Below, piece after piece: positions 25,167-32,320 of a stretch of 64,000 bases of DNA. How positions within the stretch are numbered: position 1 is the stretch's first letter; every line of letters begins with the position of its first letter. The stretch lies in assembly GCA_030446715.1 (NCBI GenBank), contig JAUJMU010000005.1:329709-393708 (forward strand), written 5' to 3'. This DNA is from Cytophagales bacterium. Its GTDB lineage: Bacteria; Bacteroidota; Bacteroidia; Cytophagales; 172606-1. Under the pieces are notes generated by a model. That model worked only from the letters and a program-made list of their open reading frames with translations. It searched no databases and was not told the origin of the DNA. Both the position numbers and the translations under genes were made by a program.

Positions 25167-26104
25167 TGAGCATACTGCGAAAAATTGAGCCACCCCTGCC
25201 GTTTTCTGTTGAGCAGGGGGTAACGGAGTAAACTGAGCCAGTTGTGGATAAGCAGGCAGGTCAAAAAATAATAGTTTGAAAGTGCTTTGGCTGATAACCA
25301 TTCCAGCCAGCGTCTTTCAAGCCATGGCCAACCTGAGAAAACCCATGTTTCAGATCCGCCGCCTGCCAGAGTTAAAAGTCCAGGGTAAAAGCAAACGCAA
25401 GATTGCCACTGTCCCTAGGCTTTCCCGCAATACCGTCCAGAGTTACCTTGATAGTTTTGAGGGCCACTTTCCGGATCTGTCGGAAGTGCTTCTCTGGAGC
25501 GATGAAGCCCTTGACCGGTTTATCCGCCTGCCCGCAAAAACGGAGACTGTCCCTGATCCGGCTCATGCCGGGTTATACAGGCTTTTTGAGGGCTACCCGA
25601 AAGAACTTGCCAGAACCGGCGTGAGCCGCTACACGCTCTGGATGGAGTACCGGAAGGTGAATCCGGAGGGGTTGAAGTACTCTCAGTTCTGTACCCTTTT
25701 CCGCACCTGGCAAGGGGCCCGGAAGACGGTGATGCACCTGGAGCATAAAGCCGGTGAAAAACTTTTTGTGGACTTTGCCGGCAAGAAGCTGTATCTGACC
25801 AATGCCATCACCGGAGAGGTAACAGCGGTGGAATTCTTTGTGGCCATTCTGCCCTGCTCACAACTGTGTTTTGCCCTGGCGGCAGGTTCCCGGCAGAAAG
25901 CTGATTTCATACCGGCGCTACAAAAGACACTTGAATACATTGGAGGCGTACCCCAGGCTATTGTACCGGACAATCTGAAAACAGCCGTTACCAAAGCTGA
26001 CCGTTACGAGCCACAGATCAACGAGACGATGGAGGACTTCGCCTCCCACTACAAAACCTGCTTTCTGCCGGCAAGAGCGGGTAAACCAAAAGACAAGGCG
26101 AAGT

Positions 26105-26131
26105 GGACCTGACACCTCGTGTCATCGGTCC
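26105..26131 (+). repeat. Hairpin insertion A in istA (GGACC...GGTCC)
   Basis: 27 nt, with outer stem GGACC/GGTCC, inner stem GACAC/GTGTC and loop CTC. It sits after codon AAG of the conserved KDKAK segment. Expected protein here is KAKVE-SAVNILYG; the observed distance is 31 nt too long and a stop appears at once (KAKWT, stop). The flanking T and ACAGGA may also be part of the insertion. Confidence 0.8.
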
Positions 26132-26383
26132 ACAGGAGAATCGGCAGTAAATATTCTCTACGGCCGCATTTACGCTCCCCTGCGAAACCGCGTCTTTCAT
26201 ACCCTTGCTGAACTCAACCAGGCCGTCAGGGAATTGCTTGACCAGCATAACCAGCTGCTCTTTCAGGGCAGGGACTACTCGCGCAGGTCTTACTTTGAGG
26301 CAGTTGAAAAACAGACGCTGCTGCCCCTGCCCGGCCAGCACTACCAGTTGCGCAGTTTCTCCTTTGGCAAAGTACACCCCAAT

Positions 26384-26413
26384 GGACCTGCCAACCATGA
26401 GCATCTGGGGTCC
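26384..26413 (+). repeat. Hairpin insertion B in istA (GGACC...GGTCC)
   Basis: 30 nt, with outer stem GGACC/GGTCC and inner pairing CCA/TGG and ATG/CAT around AG. It lies between codons for VHPN and HVLLKEDKHHY. Replacing it by a single base restores VHPN-x-HVLLKED in frame (net +29). Confidence 0.85.
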
Positions 26414-26614
26414 GCCACGTGCTGCTCAAGGAGGACAAACACCATTATTCCGTACCCTACTACCTGACAGGCAAGCAGGTCAAGCTGATCTGTACAGAGG
26501 AGACAGTGGAGATATATCATCAGCACAAGCGGGTAGCGGTTCACGTGCGGAACGTGCGTAAGTACGGCTACCCGACTCAAAAAGAGCACCTGCCGGCTAA
26601 TCAGCAGTGGGTGT

Positions 26615-26640
26615 GTAGCCGATCTTTGTCGCAGAGGTAC
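26615..26640 (+). repeat. Hairpin insertion C in istA, in frame, different termini
   Basis: GTA-CC-TCT pairs with AGA-GG-TAC around a 7-nt loop with two small bulges. It encodes about ten residues (CSRSLSQRYD) between QQWV and WSVEYFVERA, a junction where IS21 transposases normally have one to three residues. It lacks the GGACC/GGTCC ends and keeps frame, so it may be a relative of the others or ordinary length variation. Confidence 0.5.
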
Positions 26641-26800
26641 GACTGGTCAGTGGAATACTTTGTGGAACGGGCCAGCCGCATCGGCAGCAGTACCCGTTCA
26701 GCCGTGGAAGACTTGCTCTCCGGACGTCCTTACCCGGAACAGGCATACAAAAGTTGTGCAGGTGTGCTTTCCCTGGAGAGGAGATACGGCAAAGACCGGC

Positions 26801-26832
26801 GGACCTCACGATAAGATCGTGATCTCAGGTCC
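26801..26832 (+). repeat. Hairpin insertion D in istA (GGACCT...AGGTCC)
   Basis: 32 nt, with outer stem GGACCT/AGGTCC, inner stem CACGAT/ATCGTG and loop AAG. It splits the conserved SLERRYGKDR / EKACERALLYRA boundary. Replacing it with one base gives KDR-(CNG)-EKACE in frame (net +31). Confidence 0.85.
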
Positions 26833-27067
26833 GGAAAAAGCCTGTGAGCGGGCTCTTTTGTACCGGGCCACTTCCTGCCGGCTGATCTGCACGATTCTGG
26901 AAAAGGAACCCGACCGCCTTCAAACAGATCCACCAGAGAGGAAAGAAGAGAAAATCATCCTGCATGAAAACATCCGCGGGGCACTGGCTTACCAGTAACG
27001 CTGCCATACCGGAACTACTCAATCCATTCTCAATCCCTTATCCTTTCATTTACCTGACTTCTTCGCT

Positions 27068-27840
27068 ATGAACAATCAGGCAACCCTGGACCCCGAGCCT
27101 ATCTTCGTAGTAGAGATACAATGCGTGAACTCTCCCTTACGGGTATGGCTCAGGCCTTTGAGAGTTTACTTTCCCTGCCAGTAGACAAACAACCTGCCAC
27201 CGACATGACAGTGGCTCAGTTAGTAGAAGCTGAGCATCTGCACCGATGGCACCGCAGAACACAGCTATCGGTTAAAAATGCCCGCTTCCGCTACAAAGCC
27301 GGCATTGAAGAAGCGGAGTATCCCCAGGAGCGGAATCTGGACAGGAATCTGGTGCTGCGGCTGGCTGACACCAGTTTCATTACCCGTCACGAGAATGTGC
27401 TCATTACCGGGGCTACCGGCTGCGGGAAGAGTTTTCTGGCCACTGCCCTTGGCTATCAGGCCTGCCAGAGCGGCTCTAAAGCCGGCTATTTTGCCCTGCC
27501 CAAACTCCTGCAAAAGCTTCACCTGGCTACCGCTGATGGCTCCTATGCCAGAGAGCTGGCCCGGCTGGAGAAACTGCACTTGCTGATACTGGACGATTGG
27601 GGCCTGACTGCTGTAGACCTTCCTGCCCGCATGGCCATCCTGCAGATCATGGAAGACCGCCATGGGAAAGGCTCTACCATCATCACTTCTCAACTACCCG
27701 TGAGTAAGTGGTACGAGTACCTGGCTGATCCAACGCTTGCCGATGCCATCCTGGACCGTATCCTTCATCAGGCTCACCGGATAGAGCTCAAAGGTGGCTC
27801 CTTGAGAAAAAGAAAAAACCTCTCGGAAATTACCGGTTGA
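27068..27840 (+). CDS. istB: IS21 helper ATPase IstB, 5' end disrupted by an insertion
   Basis: IstB is the AAA+ ATPase that helps IstA choose and capture target DNA. The intact body from ATG 27121 (239 residues) has Walker A GATGCGKSFLATAL, Walker B LLILDDWG, sensor STIITSQLPVSKW and the C-terminal RIELKGGSLRKR. The natural start is probably ATG 27068 (MNNQATL), but a 26-nt insertion at 27091-27116 shifts the frame; removing it gives MNNQATLDTMRELSLTGMA. Translation from the internal Met may still give a working protein lacking nine residues. Confidence 0.9.
27091..27116 (+). repeat. Insertion F at the start of istB
   Basis: 26 nt placed within the codons for MNNQATLD-TMREL; the junction reads GGACC like the other insertions but the matching GGTCC is absent. 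A 5-bp stem TATCT/AGATA (27100-27104 with 27114-27118) is present. Exact removal restores the frame to the downstream istB. Confidence 0.6.
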
Positions 27841-31547: not shown

Positions 31548-31709
31548 ACTAAGTACTGTTCAGATTCAGGAAAGGAAAGCAGAAAGGTTATACCTGGGGT
31601 ACAGTATCACCTTTTGGGTGTACTTGATCAAGCCTCCATTTACCTGTTCTGCTTTCGGTTTCGTTACTTACAAAATTGCACTTTCTGCTGTTGCCTCTAA
31701 GATATGAGA

Positions 31710-32320
31710 TCAAGCCCTGGTTTGAGGTCCGCCTATGCCGTCCATGGAAACCCGGATGTTTTGATCCAGCAGCGTGTCCACAAACGCATCACTGGTGAAC
31801 TGCACTCCCTGATCAGTGTTAAATATGTTGGGCCTGCCGAACCGCTCAAGGGCTGTCAGCAAAGCCTTCACGCAAAAACCGCTTTCCATGCTGTTGGACA
31901 ACTCCCAGGAGAGCACGTATCTTGAATACCGGACCTCCGCTGTTCAGGATGTGCAGGTCCATCCATTACCGCTACCAGGTAGAGAAACCCGTTCTTCATA
32001 GGAATTTAAGTAATATCGGTGGACCACACCTGATTGATGAGCATGTTTCTGAGCAGGTAAGAGTACTTCTTATGGGCTTTATTGGCCTTACTCAAATCGG
32101 GCTTGGGATAGATGGCCACGAGTCCCATCAGCCGCCCGAGCCTTCTTACCCGCTTTTCATTTACCATCTCCCCCTGCCTCCTCAGCAACTCGTTCATCAT
32201 CCGGTAACCGGCAAAAGGCGTCTTGAGGTACTGCTCATCAATCTTGCGCATCAACTGCAGGTTCTGCTCACTTTCCCCTTTGGGCTGGTAATACAGCCCT
32301 GATTTGTGCAAAGACGACAA
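31710..32320 (-). pseudogene. IS3-type transposase OrfB, nonsense mutation plus hairpin insertion
   Basis: The frame starts SSLHKSGLYYQPKGESEQN and continues TPFAGYRMMNELLRRQGEMV (HTH_21-like) to NQVWSTDIT with the first catalytic Asp. A TAA then replaces the expected Tyr codon; reading on gives IPMKNGFLYLVAVMD, then a 30-nt insertion, then YSRYVLSWELSNSMESG in a shifted frame and NTDQGVQFTSDAF with the second Asp. The final Glu region is gone. Confidence 0.85.
31931..31960 (-). repeat. Hairpin insertion E in the IS3-type orfB (GGACCT...AGGTCC)
   Basis: 30 nt; on the coding strand the outer stem is GGACCT/AGGTCC and the inner stem CTG/CAG around AA. It falls between codons for VAVMD and the conserved (W)YSRYVLSW; substituting one base (as TGG for Trp) restores the frame, net +29, exactly as for insertion B in the unrelated IS21 element. 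Confidence 0.85.

Follow-up and report, generated by a model that had tools for sequence, protein, structure and literature searches.

This locus raises the question of why a single transposase gene should be interrupted several times by hairpins of about 30 nucleotides (nt). The 64,000-nt stretch analysed here (the window) belongs to a Cytophagales bacterium whose genome comprises 6.43 Mb in 25 contigs. It contains an insertion sequence (IS) of the IS21 family. The istA-like transposase gene of this element (25324..26998, forward strand), delimited from its open frames and by alignment with four further istA copies from this genome, is broken by three hairpin blocks, A, B and D. An initial annotation described them as members of a family of ~30-nt hairpins and not as normal coding sequence. 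We find that the blocks are real insertions, and that the family is dispersed and lies almost entirely in transposase genes. The explanation we favour, with a probability of roughly 0.6, is that these hairpins are miniature, site-selective, non-autonomous mobile elements that for the most part disrupt transposases and are carried along by insertion sequences.

Insertions in the IS21 transposase gene

The alignment of occupied with empty copies that the initial annotation had proposed was made five-way, with the window copy and the four other istA copies. One of these (C23, 77% identical) is empty at A, B and D. The C10 copy (63-68% identical) has no hairpin at A but is occupied at the B and D sites, at the same nucleotides; its hairpin at B is a different one, while that at D has 1 mismatch to the window element. 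The C21 copy is occupied at A (1 mismatch) and at the B site (a different hairpin), and D is empty. The presence of both empty and occupied copies establishes the blocks, which are in the sequence as described, as real insertions; the count of motifs in the window alone would be weak evidence.

Elements B and D show what happens at the junction. Element B (26384..26413, forward strand, 30 nt) stands for the T of a TGC (Cys) codon in N|C|H, and the corresponding empty site in C23 reads CCCAACTGCCAC. Element D (26801..26832, forward strand, 32 nt) stands for the T of a CTG (Leu) codon in R|L|E. Each replaces exactly one T of the empty site (CCCAAC-T-GCCAC and GACCGCC-T-GGA), and the claim that one base must be put back at both holds. 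For element A the annotated core (26105-26131, 27 nt) was right, but the fuller unit is 31 nt (26103..26133, forward strand). It is better bounded as GTGGACC...GGTCCAC, with GT/AC flanks that recur in most other members of its subfamily. That subfamily is also seen in IS110 and elsewhere, with compensation in the inner stem.

Empty/occupied pairs with one base replaced are also found in a complete genome of the same family of Cytophagales (G004, a single contig of 8.98 Mb), in IS3, IS256 and IS1182. Where an alignable empty copy allows the replaced base to be called, it is T at IS21 sites B, D and the C21 site, at the IS256 site, at two IS1182 sites and at the IS3 sites RYG, GNC and RDL. It is C at TD|I of E1-IS (a multi-copy IS of G004), A at GW|A and TG at VAR. 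The suggestion that the element replaced or borrowed a T thus describes most alignable sites, B and D included, but A or C is replaced elsewhere and two or three bases at a few. Mostly one base is lost on insertion (0-3 at some sites), and target-site duplication is absent from the empty/occupied alignments. For the most heavily occupied IS3 of the window genome, G004 holds a fully intact, hairpin-free counterpart (L214:90-1326; G004 C1:130090-131330).

The window holds three further insertions. A fourth, related element of the GAGCC...GGT[C]C subfamily, missed by the initial annotation, interrupts istA at 26614..26640 (forward strand), where 27 nt stand for 3 nt and the net +24 stays in frame. 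It is common to the C10 copy and missing from C21 and C23; its subfamily also occurs in a multi-copy IS3 of G004. The other two lie on the reverse strand in a second transposase gene, of IS3 type. One (31931..31960) occupies the site MD|W|YSRYVLSW, where a T in its place would yield the Trp codon; its host gene also carries a nonsense codon (DIT*IP). Further along the same gene, at an SMDG site (about 31708..31730), is a 3'-truncated member (GGACCTCAAACCAGGGCTTGATC...). A bare GGACC-N-GGTCC search of the window gives 5 matches against 1.5 expected, a number reached in 3 of 100 shuffles and so mildly unusual. A strict scan that includes the inner stem finds A and D (2 against 0.2 expected) and misses B, which is without a 4-bp inner stem. 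The istA-like gene gives a Pfam match to Mu-transpos_C_2 at 26401-26814, and istB, encoding the IS21 ATPase, follows uninterrupted at 27121..27840 on the forward strand (Pfam IstB_IS21, E 1.1e-63).

Architecture and distribution of the hairpin family

Members of the family are ~25-33 nt long. Most have the layout a-b-c-b'-c'-a', in which an outer 5-bp stem surrounds two crossing stems, for example GGACC TGAGA TCAGA TCTCA TCTGA GGTCC. Across eight members of this subfamily, 98% of cells are paired and the two crossing stems together show 16 changes on both sides, against 0 of 500 shuffles; the signal is lost on shifting the partner by a single base. A 29-nt subfamily (TAAAC...GTTTA) likewise has compensatory changes, in the second stem. 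For 37 of 77 distinct elements, the crossing pairs outnumber those in almost every shuffle of the element's interior. The 27-nt subfamily of block A (subfamily 1) has a simple inner stem, without the second; this stem also covaries (GACAC/GTGTC versus GAAGC/GCTTC). The terminal inverted repeats GGACC/GGTCC are invariant in the covariation sets, which came from searches selecting for those ends. The architecture reads the same after reverse complementation, and one site is occupied in both orientations. The layout is that of an H-type pseudoknot in the sense of two crossing stems with compensatory changes, which does not imply that both form simultaneously. With no linkers between them, the two inner stems may be alternatives.

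Elements were found in the window genome (G000) and, when related genomes were searched, in G001, G003 and G004 of the same family of Cytophagales; in G002, G005 and G006 the elements are rare or absent. About 0.6 Mb of loci from the window genome hold 50 structured copies against ~1 in shuffled sequence, a contrast inflated by the fact that most of these loci were picked for containing the motif. The initial annotation's reading of the blocks as a real family of inserted hairpins is supported, and the family is dispersed and evidently mobile. Across the whole window genome, the bare GGACC-N-GGTCC pattern occurs at near background frequency. One specific subfamily pattern matches 9+8 times there and 0+0 times in the reversed control; a sample of 394 genomes from other Bacteroidota, drawn without the other family-member genomes, has no match. 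Across the order, 3 of 291 genomes carry the version that sits in the conserved IS3 motif. In a collection of 84,980 species there were 64 pattern matches, and IS3-site context together with structure occurred only on contigs of one same-genus Cytophagales metagenome-assembled genome (MAG). The nearest named relative found is the Cytophagales MAG YX2bin28. For the patterns tried, viral and plasmid collections yielded no family members; seven matches there look like chance. The initial annotation knew of no such family in Bacteroidota IS elements, and none is described in the literature searched, whose coverage did not extend to subscription journals.

Other short structures occur in the same kinds of host. 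A 25-26-nt class with one GGATC-type end (e.g. GGATCCGACACTAGTGTCGTGGTCC) is present in transposases at L065:3967, L030:11923, L059:11629, L059:9829, L069:8581 and L179:6452; one such case fits exact insertion with zero bases lost. Another G004 element, E2-IS (L224; G004 C1:8504043-8505614), has a third, different hairpin of 23 nt (ATTGACCACGGAATCGGGTCAAT) where its empty relative has none, possibly representing a second family with TTGACC/GGTCAA ends. The IS256-type transposase of E3-IS (L227:2771-4108; G004 C1:1603270-1604607) and two identical copies contain, besides the hairpin, a 49-nt palindrome, AAAAGGAAGCAGCCTCAGTGGC-TATC-GGCCACTGAGGCTGCTTCCTTTT. It stands for conserved codons kept in the empty relative and looks like a template-switch inversion.

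Target choice, mobility and competing explanations

Nearly all placeable copies are inside transposase genes, of at least 11 IS types. Hosts of types IS3, IS5, IS21, IS66, IS256 and IS1182 are supported by Pfam matches, and ISL3 by a sub-threshold one; translated motifs, as we read them, suggest IS1, IS4, IS110 and IS630 as well. The sole recognised non-transposase host site (L070:8274; G000 C19:83273) is immediately upstream of the GTG start codon of a ParE-like toxin gene and follows an antitoxin-like frame. Within IS3, insertions were placed at RD|L|KKA, AVGI|F, R|Y|GSP, VAR|L|M, D|I|TY, GW|A|M and GN|C|(Y/W)DNA, plus MD|W|YSRY in the window. Several sites are near catalytic residues, and motifs hit include TD|I|TYI, VERS|x|AWL, GN|C|xDNA and DK|L|FVDFAG. 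Among sites compiled by hand, a pyrimidine precedes the element in 39 of 42 and a purine follows in 40 of 42, and the target takes the form RY-T-RY at most sites. We regard existence, structure, single-base replacement and near-restriction to transposases as established.

All three codon phases are used. At the GN|C site, elements of 29, 30, 31 and 33 nt share one junction. At the GW|A codon, three lineages have three different junctions, and at the NETF(A/E)D site the junctions of two IS21 lineages differ; insertion at the same codon has therefore happened more than once. Element D has 1 mismatch between the window and C10 hosts, which are ~65% identical. An identical element is shared by hosts that are 68% identical, and another by istA copies whose synonymous divergence (dS) is 0.5-0.9. 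The elements are thus far more alike than their hosts. Since the family as a whole varies freely, this argues for recent arrival at the same sites and not long inheritance. One and the same 30-mer occupies the GN|C site of IS3 genes in two genera and in different IS subgroups, which indicates recent independent arrival. Mobility of the element is likely. The elements also appear to behave as ordinary repeats: in L066/L031 the sequence between two identical elements has been deleted, so that the upstream flank of GW|A now meets the downstream flank of GN|C.

We propose the following pathway. The element would insert into a transposase gene at an RY-T-RY-like spot and replace a single base pair there, which read along the coding strand is usually T:A. 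In most members selection would keep the outer GGACC/GGTCC stem and the two inner crossing stems. The reading frame would usually be disrupted, most likely inactivating the transposase in cis. Further copies would then arise as the element rides on insertion sequences mobilised in trans.

The evidence for this pathway is that the elements are insertions when compared with empty copies and replace a single base, that their stems covary, that they recur at the same codons and almost only in transposases, that identical ones occur in diverged hosts, and that occupied IS have multiplied. As to the host gene, most net insertions are not multiples of three and the frame is broken in most cases; restoring it takes 0, 1, 2 or 3 bases depending on site and lineage. 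Many occupied hosts have further damage, among them the C21 istA copy, which has stops, and IS3 copies with Gly for Glu of the catalytic DNAxxESF motif and extra indels, several of them in homopolymers and possibly sequencing errors. Two IS3 copies of G000 (C2:702k and C7:112k; L024, L029) are 99% identical, and most of their differences are homopolymer indels, a hint of sequencing noise in the window genome. In the usual case the outcome of insertion is probably inactivation of the transposase.

Several observations weigh against the favoured explanation. Random inactivating insertion accounts neither for the choice of conserved codons nor for T outnumbering A on the coding strand. Two occupied istA copies with an identical element at the same nucleotide have a ratio of nonsynonymous to synonymous substitution rates (dN/dS) of 0.12 upstream and 0.07 downstream; their alignment over 1,620 nt has zero gaps and shows no conversion tract. 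This fits long-term function with the element in place as well as two recent independent insertions. In G004 four occupied IS families are multi-copy (E1-IS 8 copies, E2-IS 5, E3-IS 3, E4-IS at least 7). Among those G004 IS families that were surveyed, the multi-copy IS are hairpin-bearing and the intact relatives found are single copies. IS3-type transposases act preferentially in cis (PMC5009743). Finally, a mobilising enzyme was not found. Y1 transposase genes, present in 6 of 8 family genomes, were considered for this role: of 27 loci around them only a few hold an element, and no consistent linkage is seen.

The copy numbers could be taken to mean that the occupied transposase works. This argument is weakened by E1-IS, whose 8 practically identical copies have a plain +1 frameshift in addition to the hairpins, and by intact element-free relatives of E1-, E2- and E3-type elements in the same genome. 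Given both, movement in trans is the simpler account.

The strongest competitor to non-autonomous mobile elements holds that the hairpin is silent. It would be removed from the RNA or skipped in translation, counting as one U, and the transposase would still be made, perhaps at a low level that suits the IS. At single-base sites a U in place of the element does yield the conserved residue (Cys, Tyr, Trp, Leu, Ile, Phe or Ala), in all three codon phases. The low dN/dS on both sides of a shared element, the multi-copy occupied IS of the complete genome and the maintenance of both inner stems also point this way. A 29-nt translational hop was once reported, with no follow-up, in an adhesin gene of Prevotella loescheii, also of the Bacteroidota (PMC5009743); 29 nt is the net length of a 30-nt element replacing one base. 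However, 2 or 3 bases, not 1, are needed at VAR, NETFED, TDNGSA and GWA of G003 and G004, and the junction varies by lineage at the same codon. E1-IS is near-identical in 8 copies despite its extra frameshift, and inspection by eye revealed no matched take-off and landing codons. Some members leave a readable in-frame insert instead: in E4-IS the net +27 keeps the frame open and places nine extra residues beside the catalytic Glu. We consider a silent element unlikely.

Another account, improbable in our view, is that a defence-like system of the host writes hairpins into conserved transposase codons. It would explain why nearly all hosts are transposases, with conserved motifs hit and IS3 matches confined to a handful of codons. 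The RUP element of pneumococcus, a miniature inverted-repeat transposable element (MITE), supports this account as a precedent for a preference for IS (PMC2229807). Against it, neither such a system nor a guide or template array was found, identical elements act as ordinary repeats in the deletion described above, and one copy sits between antitoxin-like and ParE-like genes.

The hairpins could also be mobile 30-nt 'micro-introns' that home to conserved codons and are read as a single uridine, by RNA removal that leaves a U or by structure-driven bypassing. A bacterium could in this way put up with dozens of frame-breaking inserts in its transposases. This is quite doubtful. Lost bases, codon phase and element length at one site all vary, and no fixed skipping or splicing rule fits. 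Particular rules were rejected one by one. Exact excision leaves most sites one base short. Codon-matched bypassing finds no consistent take-off and landing pairs (judged by eye, with no scored test) and a variable phase. A fixed residual that depends on the element is contradicted by a subfamily 5 element for which the frame calls for 1 base at one site but, going by the translation, for 2 at a second site.

Gene conversion or recombination between IS copies could instead have spread a few founding insertions of an immobile element. Junctions are constant at most sites, recombination between elements does occur, and identity appears by eye to be raised around the hairpins in one IS3 pair (C7_15k/C2_702k). 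It is not raised around the shared element in L026/L064, homology at IS21 site A stops within a few bases of the element, and the same element is found in unrelated IS families, so we hold this account, too, to be rather improbable. Chance palindromes or assembly artefacts, for which the near-background frequency of the bare pattern and the hint of sequencing noise from homopolymer indels might be cited, can practically be dismissed in view of the empty sites, repeated identical copies, shuffles, covariation and presence in a complete single-contig genome.

If the hairpins are mobile elements, they would be among the smallest mobile DNA elements proposed. Their integration would swap one base pair for a structured 30-mer, with a strong preference for the most conserved transposase codons. 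Insertion sequences would thereby have a natural brake, and the chemistry of integration would be an unfamiliar one. If they are silent, a large set of bacterial genes would be read across structured inserts, which would bear on the Prevotella loescheii hop. Under either reading the question can be put to a direct test, since a complete genome holds several occupied IS families in multiple copies.

Comparison with known systems

The initial annotation offered two analogues, byp elements and Rickettsia palindromic elements (RPEs), and neither accommodates the family. In the mitochondria of Magnusiomyces capitatus, the ribosome bypasses byp elements (PMC5009743). Like them, the hairpins are short inserts at many positions of coding genes and often disrupt the frame. 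Unlike them, the hairpins vary in phase, in lost bases and in length (29-33 nt at one site), no matched codons were seen by eye, and there is no single skipping rule that would restore the frame. RPEs share with the hairpins a palindromic form and a place inside conserved protein-coding genes. They are, however, ~105-146 bp long, in frame, translated and carried by ordinary host genes (PMC2229807), whereas the hairpins are ~30 nt, mostly frame-breaking and in transposases, with E4-IS as an in-frame exception. Membership thus fails on size, reading frame and host genes.

Group I and II introns and inteins resemble the hairpins in recurring at conserved codons and in the presence of identical elements at the same site in diverged hosts. 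The hairpins differ in being 30 nt long, in having no coding capacity and in the base lost on insertion, so that plain exact removal leaves the frame broken. Intron-type exact removal restores the gene only for subfamily 1, in its GT..AC form. Repetitive extragenic palindromic (REP) sequences, associated with the RAYT transposases, are likewise palindromic repeats of 20-40 bp at high copy number. They are extragenic and linked to a Y1 transposase, whereas the hairpins are intragenic and no consistent RAYT linkage was seen.

In behaviour, the nearest precedent is RUP, an IS630-Spn1-related MITE of pneumococcus with 107 bp, TA target duplications and IS-like termini (PMC2229807). Like the hairpins, it is a non-autonomous repeat of small size that occurs in IS of many families and inactivates transposase genes (PMC2229807). 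The hairpins are shorter (25-33 nt), have crossing stems and lose one base where RUP has a duplication, and no related IS termini are known for them, no systematic comparison of termini having been made. Of the general features of a MITE, the hairpins have the terminal inverted repeats and lack the target-site duplication.
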